42,558 bases of DNA from a virus, in IMG/VR virus record IMGVR_UViG_3300009537_000975, positions 1-42,558 of that record; one strand, given 5' to 3'. The position numbers and the translations under genes are program-made. Shown here piece after piece: positions 1-42,558 of this stretch. The notes beneath the pieces were generated by a model. The model saw only the letters and a list, made by a program, of their open reading frames with translations, was not told where the DNA came from and did no database searches. Positions within the stretch are counted from its first letter, which is position 1, and every line of letters begins with the position of its first letter.

Positions 1-137
1 TTCCACCATCTGAGCACACCATATGGGTTTGCACTTCCTGCTGTGTGGTGCACATAAATTGTAGTCTTGGACACCGCTTCTCGAATGTATTGACCACTCT
101 CAAGCGGTGTCCATTTGATTTTCTCTAGTATACTCAT
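1..137 (-). CDS. N-acetylmuramoyl-L-alanine amidase (endolysin), N-terminal part, cut by window edge
   Basis: Only the first 45 codons lie in the window; the gene runs off the left end. It starts with ATG at 137, overlapping the TGA of the upstream gene as ATGA. The translation carries IYVHHTAGSANPYGV at about residues 27-41, followed by RWW. This matches the first zinc-ligand segment (hydrophobic-HHTAG) of the amidase_2/PGRP fold, which cleaves the amide between N-acetylmuramic acid and L-alanine in peptidoglycan. The likely role is host lysis or a virion-associated lysin. The family call rests on a single motif because the remaining zinc ligands and the catalytic region are outside the window. 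Confidence 0.75.
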   Translation of the reverse strand, partial: MSILEKIKWTPLESGQYIREAVSKTTIYVHHTAGSANPYGVLRWW

Positions 138-934
138 TCCTCTTCTCTGACCAATACGATGCTGACTCCGCCTCCACGAGGGCCTTGTTTGAACACAGGA
201 ACAAATCCCTCAAGCGATGGATTGGCGGCTATCGCCCTTTTCATCTTGTTTTCTTTCCTTTTCAACCAATTTTCGTATTGAGATTGAGTACGAATGTTGA
301 GCGAGTCTGCTGCACGAGAAACATCAACCCATATCTGTCTCTGTCCATCAATCACTTTATCCTTTTGAAGCATACCCACTTGTCCCTTACCACCGAACAC
401 TTTGCGAATTGCTTTCATTGCTCGCGCTCGCTCCGGACTTGGACCTGACCCCTTGATGCCAGCTGCCTTTCTATCTTCTTCTCCGAACGCGTTCTCATCT
501 ACCGCCGCGGCGAGGATATCATCAACGAGCTGCGCCATCTCCATCCCCTTAATGTTCTTTTCTGAGTAGAATTTTTGAAGCACAGGGATCAACTTAGTTT
601 GCGCTGAACGCAATTTCTTGAGCGGCAGCTTTGCCAGTTTATGAACCAGCTCCATGTGCTCTTCCCTGCCACCTTTCAGCAGGCGGTGAGCAAGCGACAC
701 TCCTATTTTCTTTCCAATTGGATGGTCTGGTGCTGCTTTCCGTGGCGTCTTTTTGCCGGCCTTTTGCGGCTTCACTGCCACTAACTTTCCGTTCACCGAT
801 TTAGCCACCACCTTATTCGTGCTTGGGTCCGCATATCTCCCAAAGCCAATAGACTTGAGTCCACGTTTCTTTGCTTCCTCGCCTGCGGTGGCTTCTAGTA
901 GTAGGTCTGCATAGAAATCAATTAGTTTACGCAT
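134..934 (-). CDS. Lysine-rich probable virion/internal head protein with CTS-like N-terminus
   Basis: A 266-residue basic protein of unknown function. Seen: the N-terminus ends in LLLE at residues 11-14, then comes a module EAKKRGLKSIGFGRYADP (residues 20-37) followed by VVAK and VNGKLV. The same module is in the gene at 2920-4605. The middle is helical and charged. Known: T4 internal head proteins carry a roughly 10-residue capsid-targeting sequence removed by prohead protease gp21 after L/I-x-E. Inferred: this protein is packaged in the prohead and trimmed after E14. It overlaps the next upstream gene by 8 nt and the amidase start by 3 nt. Alternative: a tail or baseplate-associated protein. 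The function is unproven. Confidence 0.6.
   Translation of the reverse strand: MRKLIDFYADLLLEATAGEEAKKRGLKSIGFGRYADPSTNKVVAKSVNGKLVAVKPQKAGKKTPRKAAPDHPIGKKIGVSLAHRLLKGGREEHMELVHKLAKLPLKKLRSAQTKLIPVLQKFYSEKNIKGMEMAQLVDDILAAAVDENAFGEEDRKAAGIKGSGPSPERARAMKAIRKVFGGKGQVGMLQKDKVIDGQRQIWVDVSRAADSLNIRTQSQYENWLKRKENKMKRAIAANPSLEGFVPVFKQGPRGGGVSIVLVREEE
779..877 (-). repeat. Shared module copy 1 (N-terminal domain of the gene at 134-934)
   Basis: Codes for residues 20-52 (EAKKRGLKSIGFGRYADP ... VVAK.VNGKLV). It aligns almost residue for residue with residues 23-56 of the protein at 2920-4605. This is a repeated protein module rather than a nucleotide repeat. A related but weaker stretch occurs inside the middle gene. 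Confidence 0.7.
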
Positions 935-2918
935 TGCCGTGTGCTCCTAGCTTAACAGCACCCATACTGTGATGCGGTGGGTAACGCATTGGGATATAGC
1001 CGCTGCCCTGAGATACTGCTCCCTTTGAAGTCTTCGGATGTACCTTCTGGAACGCCCTTGACTTTGGCGAATAGTCTTTCTTGAGTATGTCGGCCACTGT
1101 TGCTGCTACTGTTCCTGAATTCTCGTTGGAGATGTTGTAGGCTCGTTCCAATCTCTTTTCGATGGCACGTATCGCTACCGCATACGGCTTACCAGCAAAT
1201 GCCCTCTGAGCAAATGCTAGTATCTCTTTCCACCGGCTATCAATGATATCCAACTCTTGTTGAGTTAGTTCACCTCTACCTAAATCAGTTTTGACGGGGT
1301 TAGTAGGAACACGGATGTTACCACCGTGACTCAATGAATGTGGTTCTACTCCTTCATTAGTCCATCGCTTTTGATAAGAGGAACGACTTGTACCTGGCTT
1401 TCTCTTCATGCCGCCAGCTCCACCAACCCACGCACCAACCTTAATTGGCGTAGTCAATAGTTCAACATCCTTAATGGATTGTTTGTTCTGACGAGCCATT
1501 CTGCGGAATCTTACATCCTTCATGAATTCTCGTTCTGCAGCCTGCTGATTCGGTGCATTGACGATTGAGGAATATGACCAACCGTTGCCAACCGCGTTGA
1601 CTTCAAAGTTCTTGGTGCCGGCTTCGTTGAGTCGTTCCGCCAAATCAATGTCGGAACTTCCACATTTAGGACACTTAGCATTCCAGGAACCAGATGACTT
1701 GAATTTCTTACCACACTCTTGACATTGGACGCTAAGTTTTTCGGCTTCAATCACTACTGACTCATTGGCGTACTCAATAGCAACCCAACCTAACGGCGTC
1801 TGCGCAACATAATAGCCTTTCTTTCCAAATCCCATTCGCTTGGCTTCACCGTGTGCTTGAGATTCTTTTTCGTGGTAGTCAGTTTGACGAGCTCCATAGG
1901 GTGTTTTTTCTGCTTCCGTTACAACAGATTCGTTCCAGCGGGAAGCCATATCTTTGAAATTTCGTTTCGCTTGTCCTATATCTGGTAGCGTCCAAGTTTC
2001 ACTTTGGGGTGGGCTAAACTTACGACCAAGTGTATCGCGAACCCACCATACTTGTATTTTATTCCCGTATCGGTAGATTACTCCGTCCTTGACTTCTTTC
2101 TTTTCATCAGCAACTTTGCGAATGTCACTGCTTGACTTATGAATTCCATTGCGAGGAGCTGCTTCACCTACCATGTTCCTAACAATTTCGCCCATTGCCA
2201 TCTTCTTACCTTGACGGCGCACTTTCTTTCTTGGTGCTCTACGCATGTCACGACCTGTGTTACTGGTTTTCTTTGTCTTTCCCCACTCTGTGCTGCCTGA
2301 GGTTTTCTTGAGTCCATCCTCTTTAAGTCCGTGAGTCTTGAGGAAATTGCTAGCTTCGTCTGGCGTCATACCGCCCGACACGCCAGCCATTGCTGGATTC
2401 ATCTTGAGTGTGTCACGTGCAACCTTGACACGATTGCGAAATGCTGGGTCTGACTTCATGCGATGTGCAGCACTAGTTCTTGCCACTCTTTGTCCCCGAC
2501 TTTCACCAACTTCGCCTCGACGTTCTGGATTCTCTTCACCTTCCTTTCCCTTTTCTTCCTCTGATTCCGGCTCCTCAGGCTCCGGCGGTTCTTGATCTTG
2601 ACCGAATGCAGCGACTACTTTCTTTCCAAGAGGCGACTTTGCCTGTAAGAACATCGGCATACTGATCTGCTCTATGTCCTTTTCGTATTCATCCTCTTTC
2701 TTGTTTGGTTCCGGGCCGACTTGTGGTTGTGCTGCAGCACCAGCACCAACACTACCCCCTCCCATCCCTGTGTCTTGGAATGGAGAGCGTGGTTGTTGTT
2801 GCTGTTGCTGACTTACTTCACCATCTCTTGCCACCGCGGAGTCGGTCTTTTTCTTGTCGCCGGGACCCTTGGTCTGTTCGTCAAGAATGTTTTGGACTAT
2901 CTCTTTATATTTGGTCAT
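927..2918 (-). CDS. Large modular, charged protein with zinc ribbon; probable virion/internal protein
   Basis: 663 residues, not recognised as a known enzyme. The N-terminus MTKYKEIVQNILDE ends in L-D-E at residues 12-14, the same position as the L-x-E of its downstream neighbour. Residues 20-240 are low complexity: a Gln run near 37-42, Gly/Ala-rich and Glu/Pro-rich tracts, then strongly basic. Two nearly identical decapeptides, NESVVTEAEK (329-338) and NESVVIEAEK (385-394), separate small segments. A zinc ribbon follows, with C399-x2-C402 and C416-x2-C419. Residues 356-370 (EAKRMGFGKKGYYV) weakly resemble the module shared by the flanking genes. It reads like several short domains strung together by protease-like linkers. 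Overlap and spacing place it in one transcription unit with both neighbours. Confidence 0.6.
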   Translation of the reverse strand: MTKYKEIVQNILDEQTKGPGDKKKTDSAVARDGEVSQQQQQQPRSPFQDTGMGGGSVGAGAAAQPQVGPEPNKKEDEYEKDIEQISMPMFLQAKSPLGKKVVAAFGQDQEPPEPEEPESEEEKGKEGEENPERRGEVGESRGQRVARTSAAHRMKSDPAFRNRVKVARDTLKMNPAMAGVSGGMTPDEASNFLKTHGLKEDGLKKTSGSTEWGKTKKTSNTGRDMRRAPRKKVRRQGKKMAMGEIVRNMVGEAAPRNGIHKSSSDIRKVADEKKEVKDGVIYRYGNKIQVWWVRDTLGRKFSPPQSETWTLPDIGQAKRNFKDMASRWNESVVTEAEKTPYGARQTDYHEKESQAHGEAKRMGFGKKGYYVAQTPLGWVAIEYANESVVIEAEKLSVQCQECGKKFKSSGSWNAKCPKCGSSDIDLAERLNEAGTKNFEVNAVGNGWSYSSIVNAPNQQAAEREFMKDVRFRRMARQNKQSIKDVELLTTPIKVGAWVGGAGGMKRKPGTSRSSYQKRWTNEGVEPHSLSHGGNIRVPTNPVKTDLGRGELTQQELDIIDSRWKEILAFAQRAFAGKPYAVAIRAIEKRLERAYNISNENSGTVAATVADILKKDYSPKSRAFQKVHPKTSKGAVSQGSGYIPMRYPPHHSMGAVKLGAHGNA

Positions 2919-2919
2919 T

Positions 2920-4605
2920 CTATGCTCCGTATACAGCTTTATTAGCTTCCTTCAATTCCTTGGCAAATCTGTTGTCAAGAGTCATTTCAAACTTGATTGA
3001 TCCACCATATCCTACACCATCTTCACGAATATTGATTTCCGCAATGGGAATAAACTTCTTTGGGCCTGCTTGGTATGCAATAAATGGAGGCGGGCCCTTT
3101 CGAGAAACCAACCTTTCTTTAATGATTTCAAAATCTCTAGTTCCAAATAGTTGCTCCACAACTTTCGGGTCCATAGAATACGGACCAATTGCCATGGATT
3201 CTTCGCCCTCTGCTACTGCCTTCAAAGGAAACTCATTGCGGATTTCATCTAACATTCCTTTTTGTAGACGCCTATTTTTGGAAATCGCAATTACAGCATT
3301 TTCTGCATACTTTCTGTGTGCAGAATTGCTGGCCCCCAACAGCTTCTTTGCGGTTGGGTCACCCGCCCTCGCCAAATCCACCACTGCCTTAAGCATAACC
3401 TTGCGTGCAGCTCTGTTTGGCCTTTTCATCTGAGCTAGCTTCGATACGTCAGTAATTTTCTTGCGGCGCATCGTCTTTGCTAACTCTGAGTTAGGATTCT
3501 TTTTAATGTAATTTTGAATCTTTCTCAGTTTGGATGCCGTAAATTTTTGAAGAGCTTGAGTCTGTTTTTTGCTGTACACTCGCGGATCTATTTGTGCTGG
3601 AAGATTTGGATCCCACTCTATAAACTTTCCTGTTCCACTGTTGAGAAAATTAACGTGCACATCTTTCTTCAAAGACACTTCATCAAGAATTTCTCCCTTT
3701 GACGTTCTGACTTTGAAATATACGTCAGTGCTGAAACCTTTGTTGTCGTGATAATTTTGAAGACCCAGAGCTTCAACCTCACCCTCTGTATCCCAGGCAG
3801 CATTGACAACCTCGGCTTCTGGGCCATATTGGCGTCTTAATCTATTCAAAATGGCCCTTCTGTTATTCCTAGCTGACTTTATCCAAGATATATCTACGAT
3901 AGATTTACCTTTTGGATTTTGTTTCTTGTTTTGCTTGACGTGTTCGATTAGTTCATCGTAAAATCTTTCTGCAGCGGCATCGTCCATAGTAACGCCCATC
4001 ATCGTCATCATTTCACCAGCTTGTGCAGAAATCCGACCTTGGCCGCCTGGAATGTCGGAAAAATATGACCATCTGGCGGTCCTGGAACTGGCCTCGGAGT
4101 TGAGCATGCGTTCCAGCACATCTACATACCGTGGAGCGAACTTGCCACTTTTATATTTTCTTCCGAGTTTTTTATAATCGTTTGTCAACCAATTACCTTT
4201 GTTTTTGACCGCAAACTCTTTATTGCTAGGCTTAAGGGAGGCGAGAAAAGTTTTCGTCTTAGAAGTGTCAACACTTCTCAATGTCTTATCTTTTCCACCG
4301 ATTATTCTTTGTCCCTTTACATCTGTTTCATGTGGTTCTGGCTTGGTGTCTAATTTTGTGGCAGGAGTTTGTGGCTCTTTTTTTGCAGGCGATGGAGGCC
4401 GCTTTACGGATGGGTGTTTTGCTCCTTGAGGAGTCATAACCAATTGGCCATTGACGGTTTTTGCTACAACTGTCTGAGGATCGGCAGGATCTACATAACG
4501 ACCGTATCCGATCCCTTTTAATCCACGTCTTTTCGCCTCGTCAGATGCTTTGGATTCGCGGAGATATACTAAAAAATCATCTCCGATTACGTCCCAATGA
4601 ACCAT
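2920..4605 (-). CDS. Lysine-rich probable internal head protein with possible nuclease-like core
   Basis: 561 residues. I start it at ATG 4605, which has GGGGAA upstream, rather than at an upstream TTG (4626). The N-terminus contains YLRE at residues 14-17 (L-x-E), followed by the shared module EAKRRGLKGIGYGRYVDP (23-40) with VVAK and VNGQLV. In the central region, a segment with FSTDVYFKV, then ILDEVSLKK and NFLNSG, looks like the D...(E/S)xK arrangement of PD-(D/E)xK-like folds; this is only a resemblance. The rest is basic and helical. The stop is TAG at 2920-2922. It lies directly downstream of the holin candidate and just upstream of the zinc-ribbon modular protein. Role inferred: a packaged, possibly injected, DNA-binding protein. 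Confidence 0.6.
   Translation of the reverse strand: MVHWDVIGDDFLVYLRESKASDEAKRRGLKGIGYGRYVDPADPQTVVAKTVNGQLVMTPQGAKHPSVKRPPSPAKKEPQTPATKLDTKPEPHETDVKGQRIIGGKDKTLRSVDTSKTKTFLASLKPSNKEFAVKNKGNWLTNDYKKLGRKYKSGKFAPRYVDVLERMLNSEASSRTARWSYFSDIPGGQGRISAQAGEMMTMMGVTMDDAAAERFYDELIEHVKQNKKQNPKGKSIVDISWIKSARNNRRAILNRLRRQYGPEAEVVNAAWDTEGEVEALGLQNYHDNKGFSTDVYFKVRTSKGEILDEVSLKKDVHVNFLNSGTGKFIEWDPNLPAQIDPRVYSKKQTQALQKFTASKLRKIQNYIKKNPNSELAKTMRRKKITDVSKLAQMKRPNRAARKVMLKAVVDLARAGDPTAKKLLGASNSAHRKYAENAVIAISKNRRLQKGMLDEIRNEFPLKAVAEGEESMAIGPYSMDPKVVEQLFGTRDFEIIKERLVSRKGPPPFIAYQAGPKKFIPIAEINIREDGVGYGGSIKFEMTLDNRFAKELKEANKAVYGA
4438..4539 (-). repeat. Shared module copy 2 (N-terminal domain of the gene at 2920-4605)
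   Basis: Codes for EAKRRGLKGIGYGRYVDP ... VVAK.VNGQLV, residues 23-56, directly after the L-R-E site. The pairing of a cleavable-looking leader and this module in two genes of one cluster suggests a common targeting or DNA-binding unit. Confidence 0.7.
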
Positions 4606-5135: not shown

Positions 5136-6131
5136 ATGGCAGATATTGATGTTAGACCAATTGCGGATAACGAACTTCCACAGATAAAAGATTGGATTCT
5201 CAACCAACATTATATCAAAAGGTGGCCCACGGCCGTGCGACATAAGATGGGAGTTTATCTCAATGGGAAACTAGTCGGTACTCTACTTTATGGACTTCCT
5301 CTTTACCCCAAGTCGGGCACATCTCTTTTCCGTGACGAAAACAATCAACCCATGATGCAGAACAACCAAGTTCTAGAACTGCTTCGTGCGTTCACAACAG
5401 ATGAGGCAAAGGGAGCCGTTGACAATCTTGGTAGCATGGTAGTCGCCAAAGGAAATGAGTACATCAGCAAACACGGACGAACTAAAGATGGTAAGCCCAT
5501 TCATGCCATTTTGAGTTACGCTGACCCTGAAGCTGGCCATAAGGGAGGTGTCTACAAGGCCACTAACGCAGCGTACCTTGGCCCACAAGCAGGCGGGAAG
5601 GTGCTTGTCATCCGTGATCCCAAAACCGGCAAGGCTATTGAAGCTCATAGTATGTCAGTCAAGAATGCCTACGGGACTGTCTCTCTTGAGAAGCTTCAGC
5701 AGAATCCCAAGTTGAGAGGGGCGAAGTTAGATTGGCGCCGCACAGAGGGTAAGCACAAATATATCTGGGCGATGGGTAAGGATCAAAAGGAACGAGATAA
5801 GCTAATGGCCCACTTGGTTCCTCAAATGTATTCATATCCAGATCCAGAACGGCCTTCTAAGCCTATTCCCAACGAGGCGAAGAAAAGGTTTCAGAAGCGA
5901 CAACAACAAACTCAACAGCAAAAGAAAGGAAAAGCTCTTGAGTCCAAGCGCGGAGTTATCAAGAAACTGCTTCAAACCAAAATCAAAAATCCAGAAACAG
6001 GCAACCAGATTCTAGTGGCTACCGCTCTCAGATATGATAAGAGCCATCCTGCAAATAGGACGGCTCGTCACATAGTAAATGCCTATTCTCAAAAGCATGG
6101 CATTAAGGTGGCCCCATCTAAATTAGTTTAG
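5136..6131 (+). CDS. Mom-like acyltransferase-fold protein with C-terminal virion-type module
   Basis: 331 residues, and the only plus-strand gene. The first 190 residues follow the Mom/GNAT-like pattern: NQHYIKRWP (23-31), GKLVGTLLYG, a charged strand with NLGSMVV (97-103), then SYADP (127-131) and GHKGGVYKATNAAYLG (134-149). Phage Mu Mom uses this fold to make N6-(methylcarbamoyl)adenine in phage DNA, which protects against restriction. After a Gln/Lys-rich linker (about 235-270) comes a separate segment with TKIKNPETGNQ, RYDKSHPANRTA and a helical tail. I read this as an independent domain, possibly for virion or DNA association (inference). ATG at 5136 has AGGGGAA 4-5 nt upstream. It converges on the dNMP kinase gene 9 nt away. 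Two further Mom/DruA-like genes lie at 34246-35690. Confidence 0.7.
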   Translation: MADIDVRPIADNELPQIKDWILNQHYIKRWPTAVRHKMGVYLNGKLVGTLLYGLPLYPKSGTSLFRDENNQPMMQNNQVLELLRAFTTDEAKGAVDNLGSMVVAKGNEYISKHGRTKDGKPIHAILSYADPEAGHKGGVYKATNAAYLGPQAGGKVLVIRDPKTGKAIEAHSMSVKNAYGTVSLEKLQQNPKLRGAKLDWRRTEGKHKYIWAMGKDQKERDKLMAHLVPQMYSYPDPERPSKPIPNEAKKRFQKRQQQTQQQKKGKALESKRGVIKKLLQTKIKNPETGNQILVATALRYDKSHPANRTARHIVNAYSQKHGIKVAPSKLV

Positions 6132-6140
6132 TGCATATCC

Positions 6141-6716
6141 TTAGCTATCTTCGTCTGAATATTCCCACCCAATCCTTTGAAAAATCTCATGTAGTTGTAG
6201 ATCTAAATCTGGATCGCCTTCGTCATTGAATAGTATGTCGTCAAATACTTCATCTTCCATCTCTAACATCTCTGCTTCTGACAGATGTGCTCTCTGCGTT
6301 GCGTCAAGCGTTGTGCAGCCTGAGCGGTGCGGCGCCTTGATGCGAAGAACGTAACCAGCCAAGTCCTCCTGGATGAAACCTATCTCGCTCCAGAAACGAA
6401 CATCAGGAATGCAAAATCTAGTCACTCCCCAGTGATACTCGAAAATATCCATCCATGCCTTGAGCGTATCACACCATACCCCATCACCGTAAACTACTCT
6501 ACCAAGTTCCGTTCCCACCATCTGTAGCATCGTCCGTATATGTGGAGGCTTCGTGATAAACGCCTCTTCGAATGTCAATGCTCCCTTGCCAATGAGATCG
6601 GCTTTGAAATGCCAAGCTAGTGATACTTGAAAGAATCCCTGAGGCTTCAAGTAGTTGAGGTATACAAAATCTTTTCCCGAACCGGCAAACCCACTTAGTC
6701 CAATTACTTCAGCCAT
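6141..6716 (-). CDS. Deoxynucleoside monophosphate kinase (T4 gp1-like)
   Basis: 191 residues; T4 gp1 is about 240. The P-loop is GFAGSGKD at residues 9-16. It is followed by the typical dNMP-kinase segment MLQMVGTELGRVVYGDGVW (about 63-81), then CIPDVRF and VLRIKAP, which fit the substrate lid and dNMP-binding parts. The predicted reaction is phosphorylation of dNMPs, possibly including a modified dCMP, to dNDPs for phage DNA synthesis. The acidic tail EYSDEDS is distinctive. ATG 6716 has AAGGAG 6 nt upstream and overlaps the upstream protease-like gene by 13 nt. Confidence is good for a P-loop nucleotide kinase and somewhat lower for the exact substrate. Confidence 0.82.
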   Translation of the reverse strand: MAEVIGLSGFAGSGKDFVYLNYLKPQGFFQVSLAWHFKADLIGKGALTFEEAFITKPPHIRTMLQMVGTELGRVVYGDGVWCDTLKAWMDIFEYHWGVTRFCIPDVRFWSEIGFIQEDLAGYVLRIKAPHRSGCTTLDATQRAHLSEAEMLEMEDEVFDDILFNDEGDPDLDLQLHEIFQRIGWEYSDEDS

Positions 6717-7300
6717 CCTGAATCTCCTTCTGTTGTAACGAATGCGTGTGGTGGAACCACCATTGGAGAGAATTCCGCCGCTGCATCCAATGCTGTTTTG
6801 ATTCTGGTTTTAGCGGACTTGATTTTACCTTTAGTAGAAAAGAGACTACCAAGAGCGTACTCTTCTCCAGCGCCTGTTGCGTGTTCTTCGTTCTTCCAAC
6901 CAATAACTGCGAAATCTTCTTGGAGAGTGAACAAAGAGCCCCTGAAACCGATTAGGAACACACCTGCGAATTGCTCCTCTTGTTCGTGATATAGCTGAGT
7001 GAGTCCGCGTTCTTTGAACAACGACCTACAGGACTCTGCAAAAACTTCAACCATCCACGCATTGATATTCATATCAGGATCAAACTTAGGAATCTGCAAT
7101 GAATACTTCAAGAGCTGCAACATTCTAAAGCTTCCACACCCACCCATCACCAAATACTCTGTTCCTTCTCCGGCACACTCTACCTCAGACATAAACACTT
7201 TCGGGTCAGATACTCTTTGGTAGTGATACTCCGATCCGCCGAACGAATCACCTCCAATGATAATCTTCTCTCCCTCTTTTATTCCCACTATACACGTCAT
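6704..7300 (-). CDS. Proteasome beta/HslV-like N-terminal-threonine hydrolase
   Basis: 198 residues starting MTCIVGIKEGEKIIIGGDS. ATG 7300 is chosen because it has AGGAG 7 nt upstream and overlaps the upstream stop as ATGA. Removing Met exposes Thr1. Counting from it, Asp falls at 17 (GGDS) and Lys at 33 (SDPKVF), exactly the catalytic T1/D17/K33 spacing of 20S proteasome beta subunits and HslV. Later, TGAGEEYALGSLFS fits the conserved GSG-YA-L segment of the family. Known members form rings that degrade unfolded proteins with an ATPase partner such as HslU. No such unfoldase is seen in this window. Inferred roles: cleaving host or phage proteins, or acting with a host ATPase. It sits between the dNMP kinase and a small unknown gene. 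Confidence 0.85.
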   Translation of the reverse strand: MTCIVGIKEGEKIIIGGDSFGGSEYHYQRVSDPKVFMSEVECAGEGTEYLVMGGCGSFRMLQLLKYSLQIPKFDPDMNINAWMVEVFAESCRSLFKERGLTQLYHEQEEQFAGVFLIGFRGSLFTLQEDFAVIGWKNEEHATGAGEEYALGSLFSTKGKIKSAKTRIKTALDAAAEFSPMVVPPHAFVTTEGDSGWLK

Positions 7301-7503
7301 GCATCTTCTCCTAGTCGTAATACTTTGAGTTCTATGTAACAATAGTCTTCCATTTCCTCAAGTTTACGAATTGTATCGTCCCGTAATGACTTGAAGTCGG
7401 CACATTGCGTGTCGCCACCAATGTCTATTTTTACTTGATCGTAACCGTCGGCCGTTTTACGCACTTCCTTTTTGGTGGCCCACCATCTTAATTCATATTT
7501 CAT
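7297..7503 (-). CDS. Small hypothetical protein
   Basis: 68 residues, unrecognised. It begins MKYELRWWATKKEVRK, is rich in charged residues, and has a predicted strand-helix-strand character ending in YIELKVLRLGEDA. GAGGATG precedes the start. Its stop overlaps the start of the proteasome-like gene as ATGA, so the two are probably translationally coupled. It could be a partner or adaptor of that hydrolase, but nothing in the sequence proves this. Confidence 0.6.
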   Translation of the reverse strand: MKYELRWWATKKEVRKTADGYDQVKIDIGGDTQCADFKSLRDDTIRKLEEMEDYCYIELKVLRLGEDA

Positions 7504-33369: not shown

Positions 33370-34246
33370 CCCAAACTCCTTCCGAGCAATGCTCTGTTTT
33401 GTTGTATGGGCAAAAGCGACACGACGATTTAGACGGTGTTGCTTTAACCTTTGCTGTATCGGGGTATTCGTAGGCGATGTTAGCCTCACCTAAGAAATTG
33501 TCAAACTCGTTCATTGCCTTTTTAACCGACACAGATTTGTGAGGCGGAACAAACGGACTAACTCTCGGAATTGGATACGGTGATCCCATAAACAACTTCC
33601 TCTTGAGAATTAGGAATTCCACGACAATCAAATCCTCGTCAACCTTAAACTTCTTTGAGTAGTACCGTTTGTAGATGAGCAGTTGATTCGTCTTTGACTT
33701 GTCTTTTTTAGCGTACTGATTCCACCCCTTCGTGGAGGTTTTCAAGTCAATGATTTTAATGACCCCAGTTAACTTGTGGCGCAAGATGATATCTAGATAG
33801 CCCTTGAACCGCAATTTATCTCTGACTTGAATACTGAGCGGTACTTCTATACCCTCTAGCGTCCACTCCACTGTGGGGAAGAATTTGTCAACGTGCTCCT
33901 GAATGTAACGGAGAATCTTACAACCATCTTCGTAAAACTCCATCAACGTAGGTTTGTCACAAACGAACAACTTCTGATCGTTTTCCTCAACGGTAGTTCT
34001 CTTGAAGTGTTTGATCATATTGTCTTTGAGAATATCACCCAAGTCCATCGTGCGGCCAACTAACTTTGACTTGTTGAATATGATGTTAAGCCAATGTTGA
34101 ATAGTATCATGCATTGCTGATCCAAAGACACTGTGAATGCTATCTTCGCCAGGCAACACCTTATCAATGTATGTCAACTTCCATTGTAACGGGCAATCCG
34201 ACCACATCTTGTACTGACTGTACGAAACAGTTCGTGTTCTACCCAT
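33362..34246 (-). CDS. PD-(D/E)XK nuclease of the Cas4/RecB type
   Basis: 294 residues from ATG 34246 (a TTG one codon earlier is rejected). RTVSYSQYKMWSDCPLQWKL puts Cys18 near the N-terminus, and FGSAMHDTIQHW is the RecB-family helix. GYLDIILRH followed by IKIIDLKTSTKGWNQY gives the D...(D)xK catalytic core plus the QxxxY-type segment. CRFCPYNKTEHC (C276, C279, C287) supplies three more cysteines, so a Cas4/AddB-like [4Fe-4S] cluster is likely. Expected role: 5'-to-3' exonuclease or recombination nuclease. It overlaps the Mom/DruA-like gene upstream by ATGA. Confidence 0.82.
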   Translation of the reverse strand: MGRTRTVSYSQYKMWSDCPLQWKLTYIDKVLPGEDSIHSVFGSAMHDTIQHWLNIIFNKSKLVGRTMDLGDILKDNMIKHFKRTTVEENDQKLFVCDKPTLMEFYEDGCKILRYIQEHVDKFFPTVEWTLEGIEVPLSIQVRDKLRFKGYLDIILRHKLTGVIKIIDLKTSTKGWNQYAKKDKSKTNQLLIYKRYYSKKFKVDEDLIVVEFLILKRKLFMGSPYPIPRVSPFVPPHKSVSVKKAMNEFDNFLGEANIAYEYPDTAKVKATPSKSSCRFCPYNKTEHCSEGVWDE

Positions 34247-34863
34247 CAAAGTAACCTTACGAATATCATCTTCTGTGGTGATTCAACAAACTCCCTTAGA
34301 AGATACTTCACTTCGCCTGATTTGAATGTTCTCACTTCCACACCATCCTTAATTTCATCTCTGTCTTTTCCGTATAGAGTTCTCATTGCCAATGAAGTTC
34401 CTGCGGTCATGCCAATCATTGACCAATTGTCTGCCTTGTACATCGCTCCACTGCGAGGCGGAAGAACAAAACACTGAAGAGCTTTCAATTCGTCCCCATA
34501 TCGTTCTTTCCACCATTTCCGGGCATCGTACCTAAGCAATTTCAGAAACTTAGTGCCGGCGTTTCTATCTTCGTGGCCACTTAGGCAATACACTATGTTG
34601 TTACCTAATTCGTTAAAGCTGATAGAGTTCGACTCCATGAATTCTCTTATCGTTGTCGGCCAACCAAATGCTGACGCCAATCCCCACACACCTACAACCC
34701 GTGAATCCTCAAACAGCATCCAATACAACTTGCGTGAAGGTCTATCACTCCATTTGATATATGAGTGATTGTCGTTGACAAATTTCTTGGCAAGCATTCG
34801 TTGTTTGGGTGTAGTAATTCGCTCAATCCTGTGTCGTAGTTCAGACCAACGAAACCAATCCAT
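34246..34863 (-). CDS. DruA/Mom-like acyltransferase-fold protein
   Basis: 205 residues. NDNHSYIKWSDRPSRKLYW (30-48), VVGVWGLASAFG (56-67), then NAGTKFLKLLRY (101-112) and CFVLPPRSGAMYKADNWSMIG (131-151) follow the order of DruA/DUF4338- and Mom-type proteins: H-x-Y entry loop, GNAT-like strands, and YKADNW near the end. Known Mom modifies adenine. DruA is part of the Druantia defence system. Inferred: a DNA- or nucleotide-modifying or anti-restriction protein. It abuts its relative at 34863 as TAATG. Confidence 0.68.
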   Translation of the reverse strand: MDWFRWSELRHRIERITTPKQRMLAKKFVNDNHSYIKWSDRPSRKLYWMLFEDSRVVGVWGLASAFGWPTTIREFMESNSISFNELGNNIVYCLSGHEDRNAGTKFLKLLRYDARKWWKERYGDELKALQCFVLPPRSGAMYKADNWSMIGMTAGTSLAMRTLYGKDRDEIKDGVEVRTFKSGEVKYLLREFVESPQKMIFVRLL

Positions 34864-35690
34864 TAGAAATCAAAAAACTCCTTAGACTTTTCGTAAGTCC
34901 ACACCTTCCGTTCGTTGCGAATGAAGGCTTTGTTGCTTTCACTGCTGATTTCAGGATTGTAGTTGATCTTGGGGCAATTCTTCCATTCACCCGTATCTAA
35001 ATCCTGAATCTTCCACTCCAAATCTTTGTCTTTCGGATAGGCGATATTCCACTCTACTGTAGATTCCTTGAGCAACTTCTTTTGCTCTCTCTTATCACAT
35101 AGGAATTGAATGTACCTAAATTGCTTTCCCTTGTAGTGGTTCCATCCGAATTCTTTCAATTGTGCCTTGGTTGGTCGGTGACCGTACTTCGCATCCTTCT
35201 GCTGTAACTTACTTGTAATTCCTTGTGAGCTTCGGGGGTGAATTCTCTCGCCCTCACTCGACATATACAAGTCTGTCCAGATAAATCCGCCATATAGAAA
35301 GTTGGCTGACTGATAGACGTAGCCTGGCTTTCCAAGTGTTCCGTCCGCCCAGGTGAATAGGATTTTCTTGTCGGTACGATTCTGTTTGATCCATCGAAGC
35401 GTCCGACTCAGGAAGACTGATTCCGAATTTTTCGGCATATCCTCATGCATACACATCTTGCCGATTTCGTAGTAATCCTCCGCCCTAAGTGAAGGAAACA
35501 ACACTCTAATGGTGTGGAGCGGACGCACACCCCAACCCAAAGTAATAACACCAACTAGCTCATCGCCGATGAAACCGCCAAGGTAAACATCGGTGAGCCG
35601 TGGCATAATTTTTGAGTAGTGGAACTTGAAGATCAGGGAGAGAGCTTCTACCTTATCAATCTCCCTTACTTCCAGCTTGGTTATCTTCAT
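34863..35690 (-). CDS. Mom-like adenine-modification protein
   Basis: 275 residues from ATG 35690, where GAGGAAG lies upstream; a longer in-frame start (35780) would overlap the neighbour by 125 nt. FHYSKIMPRLTDVYLGGF (23-40), DELVGVITLGWGV (43-55), PKNSESVFLSRTLRWI (86-101), FTWADGTLGKPGYVYQSANFLYGG match the Mom family closely. It would install N6-(methylcarbamoyl)adenine or a related group. The last 80 residues are basic and may hold a DNA-binding part. Overlaps the upstream gene by 35 nt. Confidence 0.78.
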   Translation of the reverse strand: MKITKLEVREIDKVEALSLIFKFHYSKIMPRLTDVYLGGFIGDELVGVITLGWGVRPLHTIRVLFPSLRAEDYYEIGKMCMHEDMPKNSESVFLSRTLRWIKQNRTDKKILFTWADGTLGKPGYVYQSANFLYGGFIWTDLYMSSEGERIHPRSSQGITSKLQQKDAKYGHRPTKAQLKEFGWNHYKGKQFRYIQFLCDKREQKKLLKESTVEWNIAYPKDKDLEWKIQDLDTGEWKNCPKINYNPEISSESNKAFIRNERKVWTYEKSKEFFDF

Positions 35691-35964
35691 CTTGTACCGA
35701 AACTTCCTCAGTAAGCTGCTTAGTCGCCACTTCCTCCCAAGCCGGTTCCCACTCTGTTCTGAGTGCGCCATGTTTATCAAATGCTTCTCGTAGTTCCTGT
35801 GGGATTGTGTTGTTCTCTATCCTCAACATCTTAATCCCATCTTTGCGAGTTTCGGGCCTGCCGTCTACTATCCCTTCCCAAACTAACTCGTTATCTTGGT
35901 TGTATGCCTTGACCCAAAAGCTGTAAAATTGTAGGCTGCCTACACCTATTTTAGTCTGACTCAT
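35656..35964 (-). CDS. Small hypothetical protein
   Basis: 102 residues from ATG 35964 (CGGAAG upstream). MSQTKIGVGSLQFYSFWVK is beta-like, then WEGIVDGRPETRKDG and a Gln/Glu-rich acidic tail. Unrecognised. Overlaps the cupin gene by 14 nt. Confidence 0.58.
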   Translation of the reverse strand: MSQTKIGVGSLQFYSFWVKAYNQDNELVWEGIVDGRPETRKDGIKMLRIENNTIPQELREAFDKHGALRTEWEPAWEEVATKQLTEEVSVQDEDNQAGSKGD

Positions 35965-37867: not shown

Positions 37868-38788
37868 CTATTTCTGCAACCGCAACACATTGGTTAGTGT
37901 CGCCATCATATTAATTTCGTGATCTACTACGTGCGCATCGTTGACTTGTCCTTCAGCAATGGCCAAGATGACTTCAGAAATGTTATTCGGGCTGAGTTGA
38001 TCAACCTTGTCAAACAATAACCGATACAACGGAGCGAAATCTCTCACCCTTGAGTCGGCTAAAATCTGTCTTACCTCTTGGAACTTGGCTTTAGAGGGAG
38101 AATCACTTAAGAGCACTTGTACGATGTGTGTCTTGTAATCACTCTCTGCTATTTCTCGTTCCTCAACATTAAGAGTGCCATTCTTGGAGTGACTCTGACA
38201 ATCGTTAATGATCTGTCTCAAGTCTGGATAGTGTGCATCCACCAATAATGCCATATCCTTGGGAGTGAACTTGACTTCCTCTTTCTCAAGAATGCCTGCC
38301 ACGTGCATTGCCGCCTGTTTGCGTGACGGTGGAACAATCTCAAAGACCTGACACCGGCTGATTAGCGGTTGAATCACTCTGTCTCTGTAATTGGCCGTTA
38401 GAATGAAACGACAGGTCTTGCTGAATTGTTCCATTAGATTGCGTAATGCTGCCTGGCCTTGTGGAGTCACAAAGTCTGCTTCGTCCAACACTGCTATCTT
38501 GAGTGACTTGAAACCTATCCCACTCGCGAAACCCTTGAGTTTGTTACGGACTGTCTCAACGTTATTTTCGTCAGAGGCATTGATAAACAGAAAATCACAC
38601 TCAATCGTGTTGACGATGATTTTGGCTGCTGTTGTCTTTCCAGTTCCAGCAGGGCCATAGAGCAATAGATGCGGTATGTCACCTTCATCTAGCCATCCCT
38701 CCAATTTCTCTATGAAGTGTTTGTTTCCTATGTAGCCTTTGGTAGACGTAGGACGATATTTTTCAACCCACAAGTAGTGTTCACTCAT
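37868..38788 (-). CDS. Clamp-loader ATPase (T4 gp44/RFC small-subunit-like)
   Basis: 306 residues from ATG 38788 (GAGG upstream; GTG 38800 rejected). WVEKYRPTSTKGYIGN is the RFC N-terminal box, LLYGPAGTGKTTAAKII (42-58) is Walker A, AVLDEADFV (99-107) Walker B, and ISRCQVFEI (143-151) supplies the SRC arginine finger. It hydrolyses ATP to open and load the sliding clamp, with the gp62-like subunit, onto primed DNA. The two genes are separated here by three small genes, whereas in T4 they adjoin. Confidence 0.93.
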   Translation of the reverse strand: MSEHYLWVEKYRPTSTKGYIGNKHFIEKLEGWLDEGDIPHLLLYGPAGTGKTTAAKIIVNTIECDFLFINASDENNVETVRNKLKGFASGIGFKSLKIAVLDEADFVTPQGQAALRNLMEQFSKTCRFILTANYRDRVIQPLISRCQVFEIVPPSRKQAAMHVAGILEKEEVKFTPKDMALLVDAHYPDLRQIINDCQSHSKNGTLNVEEREIAESDYKTHIVQVLLSDSPSKAKFQEVRQILADSRVRDFAPLYRLLFDKVDQLSPNNISEVILAIAEGQVNDAHVVDHEINMMATLTNVLRLQK

Positions 38789-39161
38789 TTTCGTCCTCAC
38801 GCACGTATAGTCGTGCTATCTCACAGAGAGCGACGAATACAGCATCTTTGTCTTTCTCTAATGTGCCAAGTTCAGCATACGGGACTAAATCAGGGTGTAT
38901 CCGATTTTCAGGATCATATGTTTCACCATAAACCCAACCTCTATCTAGATATGCTTGCATCCACGAACCGTGCAACTCTTCTGGTGACGCGGAACGTGAA
39001 GGTCCACTCTGCCGTTCAATGATATGAATAAATTGTTCACGAAAATCAGCTTCTCGTTCTGTCCAAGTCGCCGGAATGATTGGTGCCCCAGCGGCGATAG
39101 CGGCCAATCGTGCCGCCTCATACACGAATATACTTCTTCGTTCGTTGATATCATTCATCAT
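38781..39161 (-). CDS. RyR-domain protein
   Basis: 126 residues from ATG 39161 (GGGAG upstream; a longer start is rejected). SPEELHGSWMQAYLDRGWVYG with HPDLVPYAELGTLEKDKD is the RyR domain signature found in many phage and bacterial proteins. The domain is a small ligand-binding fold of uncertain role, sometimes linked to nucleotide sensing. The N-terminal helix is YEAARLAAIAAG. Confidence 0.75.
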   Translation of the reverse strand: MMNDINERRSIFVYEAARLAAIAAGAPIIPATWTEREADFREQFIHIIERQSGPSRSASPEELHGSWMQAYLDRGWVYGETYDPENRIHPDLVPYAELGTLEKDKDAVFVALCEIARLYVREDENE

Positions 39162-41670: not shown

Positions 41671-41917
41671 CTGGTAGTAGTTTTCTCAACTCTTCGACCG
41701 CTTCCTGATCCCCTCTGACATACAAGATGGCCTTGTCGTAGTCTACGTCAATATGTTCATTGGTAACGTGATTTTGCCACTCCGCATAACCATGAATACC
41801 ATCAATCCACATCATCCAATCACTAGTTTTGATTTTCCAGGGGCCTAGCTTTGGTTCGCGCGCTTTGATTTCTTCTGAAGTCATTTCCAGTTCTATTTCT
41901 GGAATGTTGTCTTTCAT
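41663..41917 (-). CDS. Small hypothetical protein
   Basis: 84 residues from ATG 41917, overlapping the clamp stop as ATGA. IELEMTSEEIKAREPKLGPW, DWMMWIDGIHGYAEW and AILYVRGDQEAVEELRKLL are acidic and helical. Unrecognised; could be a clamp-associated protein by position only. Confidence 0.58.
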   Translation of the reverse strand: MKDNIPEIELEMTSEEIKAREPKLGPWKIKTSDWMMWIDGIHGYAEWQNHVTNEHIDVDYDKAILYVRGDQEAVEELRKLLPDE

Positions 41918-42558
41918 CACGACAACTTGATCTCAACCAAATAATACTCTACGGTGAATCCGTCAATGTCAAACGAGATGAACGAAAGTCCCTTCTCAGA
42001 AACCTTCATCGTTCCACCACGGGCTTCCTTGTTCGCCAGTAAAATGTCTTTCATGTACCGTGCTGAGAAGCTGACCTCTCTACTCAATCCTTCGCCTTCG
42101 CTCAAGTCAACAGTGAACGCCACTCTGTTTGTGTTTTGATTCTTGGAGTAACCAAGAATGACTTGCGTCTTGTCATCTTCTGTCAATACTGTGAAAGTTT
42201 CCACATCAGGAAGTGCGTTCTTGCCCTTGACGAACGTGTTCATGAACTTGCTGTCAAGAGCTACCCCAATCGAAAACTCAGGAAGTGCCTTCACATCCGG
42301 CACGTCTGGAATGACGCTAGGTTCGGCAAGAACAAAAGTCACCTTAGTTGCAGCATCCCGCAACCCAAGCGACTTTGGACTATCTTTTACCTTATTTACC
42401 GTAACCTGAATGTCTTCGTCCAACACACCCATCATACCACGCAGAGTAGCGGTGTCAAAAATGGCGTACTCGCCCTTTTCAAATCCGGCCTCTGTCGTAA
42501 CGACAATGCCTAGAACGTTCTTGTCGTCGGAAATAAAGCTTGTGCTTAGCTTCTTCTT
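41917..42558 (-). CDS. Sliding clamp (T4 gp45-like), N-terminus cut by window edge
   Basis: 213 residues are present and about 15 are missing at the right edge; T4 gp45 has 228. Reading to the edge gives KKKLSTSFISDDKNVLGIV, then YAIFDTATLRGMMGVLDEDI, a typical clamp repeat. SFSARYMKDILLANKEARGG and FISFDIDGFTVEYYLVEIKLS form the C-terminal repeat and strand. It is the processivity factor and, in T4, also the activator of late transcription. The order clamp, ATPase, small subunit follows T4. Confidence 0.85.
   Translation of the reverse strand, partial: KKKLSTSFISDDKNVLGIVVTTEAGFEKGEYAIFDTATLRGMMGVLDEDIQVTVNKVKDSPKSLGLRDAATKVTFVLAEPSVIPDVPDVKALPEFSIGVALDSKFMNTFVKGKNALPDVETFTVLTEDDKTQVILGYSKNQNTNRVAFTVDLSEGEGLSREVSFSARYMKDILLANKEARGGTMKVSEKGLSFISFDIDGFTVEYYLVEIKLS

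Follow-up and report, generated by a model that had tools for sequence, protein, structure and literature searches.

Does the left end of this viral DNA encode proteins that travel in the phage head? The window, by which we mean the whole stretch analysed here, is the IMG/VR virus record IMGVR_UViG_3300009537_000975 with 42,558 bases and T4-type replication genes on board. At its left end lie three adjacent genes, A, B and C, all on the minus strand, whose proteins start with a short leader peptide. The initial annotation gave the ends of these leaders in consecutive genes as LLLE (E14), ILDE (E14) and YLRE (E17), and the translations of C, B and A read exactly so. It likened them to the capsid-targeting sequences (CTS) of phage T4. 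We find it probable that A, B and C are T4-type capsid-targeted and probably injected cargo of the virus head. Capsid targeting is very likely for A and C and somewhat favoured for B, and injection by the window phage is fairly likely.

The leaders of C, B and A are 14, 14 and 17 residues long and end in L-L-E, L-D-E and L-R-E. Positions 4 and 7 are hydrophobic or aromatic in all three (W4 and I7 in A, Y4 and I7 in B, L4 and F7 in C). According to a T4 source (PMC9026906), T4-type CTS propeptides have about 10-19 residues, and hydrophobic positions 4 and 7 matter for targeting. The closest relative found, locus L016, whose deoxynucleoside monophosphate kinase is 63% identical to that of the window, also has a gene A-like N-terminus and retains W4, IG and F-x-x-F-L-x-E followed by S. 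Its protein, which begins MIQWSTIGNSFATFLHE followed by S, backs the start ATG of gene A, and Shine-Dalgarno-like GGAG/AGGAG is found 5' of genes B and C. All three proteins are strongly basic. Their isoelectric points (pI) are 9.86 (A), 9.60 (B) and 10.10 (C), compared to a median of 5.60 for the 45 window proteins of 120 or more amino acids, among which C ranks first, A third and B fifth.

The L-x-E ending by itself is weak evidence. About one fifth of the window proteins have [LI]-x-E ending at residues 8-18, and three consecutive proteins of this kind occur somewhere in 7.7% of composition shuffles. A stricter form, phi-x-x-phi-[LIMF]-x-E in the first 18 residues, was chosen partly after the data were seen; it is present in 4 of 60 window proteins, including A, B and C, and is found in three consecutive proteins in 0.13% of shuffles.

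Behind their leaders, A and C share a module of about 40 amino acids with the sequence D/E-EAK-K/R-RGLK-x-IG-F/Y-GRY...VVAK-S/T-VNG-K/Q-LV. That two of the three proteins carry the same module had been proposed from the start, and the two copies indeed align at 41 bits (E 8e-11 against a small set of sequences) and are also joined by an iterated profile. A tblastn search of the A and C N-termini against phage records gave significant matches on Kyanoviridae proteins, namely an NMNAT-like cytidylyltransferase with the leader MKKFSDFL[ST]EA and a protein of the Synechococcus phage S-CREM2 annotated as Cas9-like endonuclease; a shorter query added a kinase and a protein of Xanthomonas phage X1. 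Profile searches brought the number of module copies to 43, taken from loci of isolates and of IMG/VR and mostly N-terminal after a leader ending in phi-x-E and at times internal after such a site. A phi-x-E lies at most 20 residues upstream of the module in 36 of the 43 copies, which include related sequences and duplicate contigs and are not independent; for random positions in the same proteins, the mean is 14.8 and the maximum 24. AlphaFold, run with 20 sequences, predicts one helix and four strands with a predicted local distance difference test score (pLDDT) of about 85 over gene A residues 21-50. The first 70 or so positions of phrog_3561, a family of unknown function, correspond to the module, and this family matches A (3e-6), C (2e-4) and loci L014 and L054. 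Viral contigs gave no matches to A or C as single-protein queries and had to be searched with an alignment of the module or the A body. Nothing informative came from comparing A, C and the module with Pfam, PHROGs, PDB sequences and PDB folds. A scan of 85k bacterial and archaeal genomes for the module alignment, limited to two exact degenerate patterns, found no relatives, which is consistent with a virus-borne module.

In related phages, the module is attached to a wide range of enzymes. By Pfam and PHROGs, these are a Zeta_toxin-type P-loop kinase in L012, L018 and L050, a CTP_transf_like domain in L007 and L053, a protein kinase/APH in L021 with a weak match, and an HD_4 phosphohydrolase in L014 (L014:9986-10678), which might be an injected enzyme resembling (p)ppGpp hydrolases. 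Nuclease-like proteins are also found among the module carriers of T4-like phages. In L040, the module is attached to an ADP-ribosyltransferase that matches the Alt-like phrog_802. Since Alt is a T4 enzyme that is borne in the head and injected (PMC9026906), L040 connects the module straight to a class of proteins known to be injected. One N-terminus that recurs on many enzymes with no relation to each other is what a tag would look like.

An experimental link comes from S-CREM2. In its proteome report (PMC10665884, Table 3), 52 of 219 predicted proteins were detected by mass spectrometry in purified virions. Both module proteins, ORF12 and ORF14, are among them, as are the leader proteins ORF6, a SAM lyase, and ORF13, 15, 136 and 154. 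The pattern [FYW]xxF[LIMF]xE, derived from T4 IPII/IPIII, occurs in the first 18 residues of four S-CREM2 proteins, all of which belong to the detected 52 (Fisher P=0.003); with the range widened to 27 residues, 5 of 6 carriers are detected. A second virion proteome, that of S-SZBM1 (PMC9146016), also lists a cytidylyltransferase, which may carry the module. A match to phrog_3561 covers the greater part of the S-CREM2 virion protein labelled Cas9/Csn1 (L002:7875-10484). Its Cas9 label looks unsupported, and an HNH-like stretch is seen by eye.

The processing protease can be followed in relatives. Ten of the 11 module-bearing records contain gp21 (PF03420), and the exception is a 98-kb fragment. 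The gp23 cleavage site, which is FLTE followed by A in T4, aligns with LLTE before A in S-CREM2 and LIDE before A in the L017 contig, the two relatives compared. This 36.6-kb contig (L012/L017, IMGVR_UViG_3300037264_001396) also contains at least six genes that begin with an MKLxxLLxE-like leader on unrelated proteins. They lie near gp21 and gp23, and one encodes a 5'-nucleotidase-like protein. The comparison with T4 capsid targeting is therefore supported by S-CREM2 virion proteins with homologous leader-plus-module N-termini, by gp21 and the [LI]-x-E sites of gp23 in relatives, by the Alt-like cargo and by the basic pI of A, B and C.

For the window phage, we infer packaging and cleavage from the leaders, the spread of the module, the virions of relatives and their gp21 and gp23 sites. 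The leader would dock each protein into the prohead core as a T4-type CTS. The gp21-type protease of the phage would cut after L/I-x-E, which places the mature N-termini at A15 in C, Q15 in B and S18 in A. The trimmed proteins would remain inside the head with the DNA and enter the host at infection. After the cut, A and C would begin with the helix-plus-four-strand module that related phages put on many cargo enzymes, and gene A would then bring a putative PD-(D/E)XK-like nuclease body. The module may serve to retain cargo inside the head or to keep it on DNA, a guess from its positive charge.

The body of gene A defines a new family that is widespread in IMG/VR. A homolog with 31% identity is found in L054, behind an internal module. 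The profile of both bodies yields relatives on at least 109 IMG/VR contigs, of which 80 were kept at 40-52% identity; a search of the L054 body against 50,697 phage records gave no relatives and no isolate for this family. W271, D272, S292, D294, E309, S311 and K313 are invariant in 46 A-family sequences. The AlphaFold model (mean pLDDT 82) has strands at 295-301 and 304-313, with D294 just ahead of one strand, E309, S311 and K313 on the next, and flanking helices. This predicted layout is as expected for a PD-(D/E)XK core; in the canonical form, the motif acid lies two residues closer to K. The nuclease-like stretch of the initial annotation thus corresponds to a motif that does not vary among the homologs of A, but a fold match to known nucleases was not obtained. 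From motif and predicted layout, we consider nuclease function an even possibility, and gene A was not filed as a member of the PD-(D/E)XK family. A staphylokinase-like Pfam line for gene A (E 0.07) was weak and was discarded as chance. The alternative N-terminal regions of A-family proteins often end, by eye, in phi-x-E followed by other small modules. In loci L055-L134, interchangeable small modules of GYGRY, NPxTG, VKNKKSG and KYKxKDG type separate the N-terminal region from the body. No other proteins were found to share the N-terminal region of the A family as a tag, and the 80 A-family loci contain no homologs of B or C.

Gene B is the weakest member of the cluster, as the leader is its only strong link to capsid targeting. 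Its low-complexity N-half is followed by small segments, and two near-identical NESVV[TI]EAEK sequences provide internal phi-x-E sites at E335 and E391. Instead of an effector, B could be a substrate of the core or scaffold kind with several cleavage sites. Extended to the whole cluster, this would make A, B and C virion-targeted structural proteins of the prohead core or scaffold like T4 gp22, gp67 and gp68, cut by gp21 and not injected. The basic, low-complexity B with its internal sites resembles core proteins, which are cut into many fragments (PMC9026906). However, A and C have their N-terminal unit in common with proteins whose enzymatic domains can be recognised, the invariant motif of A looks catalytic, and the cluster is not beside head genes on the window contig. 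We regard a structural role as unlikely overall and as most plausible for B.

Several observations weigh against head cargo as the function of A, B and C. L-x-E alone is not predictive in S-CREM2 virions (13/52 versus 37/167, P=0.40); with zero predictive power in this proteome, it was dropped as evidence. The leaders exceed the 10 residues of T4 and do not have the exact F-L-x-E core. The window contig, a fragment without head genes, contains no gp21 or head gene, and gp21 is seen on 5 of 17 contigs with A-family proteins, which are fragments as well. Most A-family homologs have a different N-terminal region in place of the leader and module of A. Gene B contains no convincing module; its borderline trace of 3.8 bits lies close to the highest scores of 500 shuffles. 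The module fold has no PDB match. For the gene A body, Foldseek finds no significant PDB match and only uncharacterised viral models; because of this lack of a PDB relative, gene A is only a putative nuclease.

On a rival reading, the leaders are coincidental hydrophobic N-termini, the three genes encode ordinary proteins of the cytoplasm or of DNA metabolism that are produced during infection, and the module, for example, binds DNA and has no capsid link. L-x-E alone is indeed common, the neighbours of the A family read as gp32-, RecA- and helicase-like genes, and related small modules are found on a Mom-like protein too. Against coincidence stand the S-CREM2 module and leader proteins in purified virions, the frequency of phi-x-E ahead of module copies far above the null, and the variety of enzymes that carry this N-terminus. 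We therefore consider coincidence quite unlikely. It is improbable that packaging is directed by the module itself, with the L-x-E peptide as just a linker or trimming site: internal modules in L012, L018, L050 and L054 and modules without a clear leader directly ahead would fit, but S-CREM2 virion proteins ORF6, ORF13, ORF136 and ORF154 have a leader with no module found, and a 10-residue leader is sufficient for targeting in T4 (PMC9026906).

Head targeting by the leader remains the preferred reading. We tentatively extend it, at slightly less than even confidence, to the module as a transferable second tag behind the gp21-cut leader that marks injected effectors. A would then be the first member to be recognised of an injected nuclease family that is widespread in uncultivated phages.

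Table 1. Features of the three-gene cluster and the neighbouring Mom-like protein in the window
Feature	Position	Strand	Remarks
Gene C	134-934	-	266 amino acids
Gene C leader, residues 1-14	893..934	-	MRKLIDFYADLLLE, then A15; gp21 predicted to cut after E14
Gene C module, residues 16-56	767..889	-	Homologous to gene A module
Gene C body	137..766	-	Basic, pI 10.1; no relatives found
Gene B	927-2918	-	663 amino acids
Gene B leader, residues 1-14	2877..2918	-	MTKYKEIVQNILDE, then Q15; ends at E14
Gene B body	930..2876	-	Low-complexity N-half, then small segments split by NESVV[TI]EAEK-type phi-x-E sites
Gene B zinc ribbon, residues 395-424	1647-1736	-	HypA-like match under Pfam cut-off
Gene B segment, residues 431-488	1455-1628	-	Homologous to L016 protein, E 4e-9
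Gene A	2920-4605	-	561 amino acids
Gene A leader, residues 1-17	4555..4605	-	MVHWDVIGDDFLVYLRE, then S18; gp21 predicted to cut after E17
Gene A module, residues 18-58	4432..4554	-	Profile of 43 copies; one helix and four strands predicted
Gene A body, residues 95-561	2923..4323	-	New family, nuclease-like; L054 homolog, IMG/VR relatives, AlphaFold
Invariant motif S292, D294 ... E309-x-S311-L-K313	3667..3732	-	46-sequence alignment; PD-(D/E)XK-like (inferred)
NPxTG module, C-terminus of Mom-like protein	5949..6128	+	Several A-family proteins also have it, there behind the leader region and ahead of the body

The neighbouring gene at 5136-6131 on the plus strand encodes a Mom-like DNA modification protein (PF25680, phrog_1384), the second most basic protein of the window and possibly head cargo as well. 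A second Mom-like protein is encoded at 34863-35780 on the minus strand (phrog_1384, 1.5e-39), and the basic protein adjoining it at 34246-34863 (minus strand) may be related. The gene at 6704-7342 (minus strand) matches an HslV-like peptidase family (phrog_1040, 5e-13), here in a phage. From 7530 to 31770, a long minus-strand series of nucleotide-sugar, glycosyltransferase and methyltransferase-like genes resembles the sugar clusters of jumbo cyanophages (PMC7824862). The replication genes include a gp44-like clamp loader at 37868-38800 (phrog_168 match), and the open frame 41917-42558 reads by eye as a sliding clamp.

Phage-injected proteins are hard to learn, above all for uncultivated phages. 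If leader and module act as proposed, injected enzymes could be listed from sequence alone across marine and freshwater T4-like phages, including kinases, (p)ppGpp-hydrolase-like HD proteins, NMNAT-like enzymes, zeta-like kinases, ADP-ribosyltransferases and nucleases. Such a tag would explain the recurring NMNAT-like cytidylyltransferases and kinases in cyanophage virion proteomes, and leaders and modules would serve protein delivery by T4-type capsids.

Among known systems, the internal proteins IPI-IPIII of T4 are most similar to A, B and C in their propeptide with hydrophobic positions 4 and 7 and an L/I-x-E end, and they are likewise basic, clustered and diverse. IPII/IPIII begin with MKTYQEFIAE followed by A, an annotated 10-residue propeptide with Y4 and F7. 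In contrast to IPI-IPIII, the leaders of A, B and C have 14-17 residues, the proteins are much larger, and A and C have an extra module predicted to be folded. T4 Alt is similar as a large enzyme in the head, to whose class the module relative L040 couples; A, B and C have no ADP-ribosyltransferase domain, and A looks nuclease-like. Beyond the module, A, B and C match no Pfam, PHROG or phage record and show no homology to IPI-IPIII or Alt. A full-text search of a literature collection on capsid targeting with cyanophage returned a T4 review, whose relevant passages do not describe such a leader-plus-module system. The phiKZ/SPN3US inner-body and ejection proteins share the removal of cargo propeptides by a gp21-related protease before ejection, but these propeptides mostly have 111-254 residues, the protease specificity is different and the cargo is unrelated. 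The S-CREM2 ORF6, 12, 13, 14 and 15 form a similar cluster of leader-protein genes, two with the same module and all in virions. They comprise a SAM lyase, a phrog_3561 protein called Cas9, an APH-like kinase and two unknowns. Their bodies differ from those of A, B and C, and S-CREM2 is only remotely related to the window phage. ORF12 is HNH-like by eye, compared to the PD-(D/E)XK-like gene A, and phrog_3561 beyond the module does not match A or C. We conclude that the working principle would be that of the T4 CTS, and that the shared extra module and the widespread new cargo family would be the new elements.
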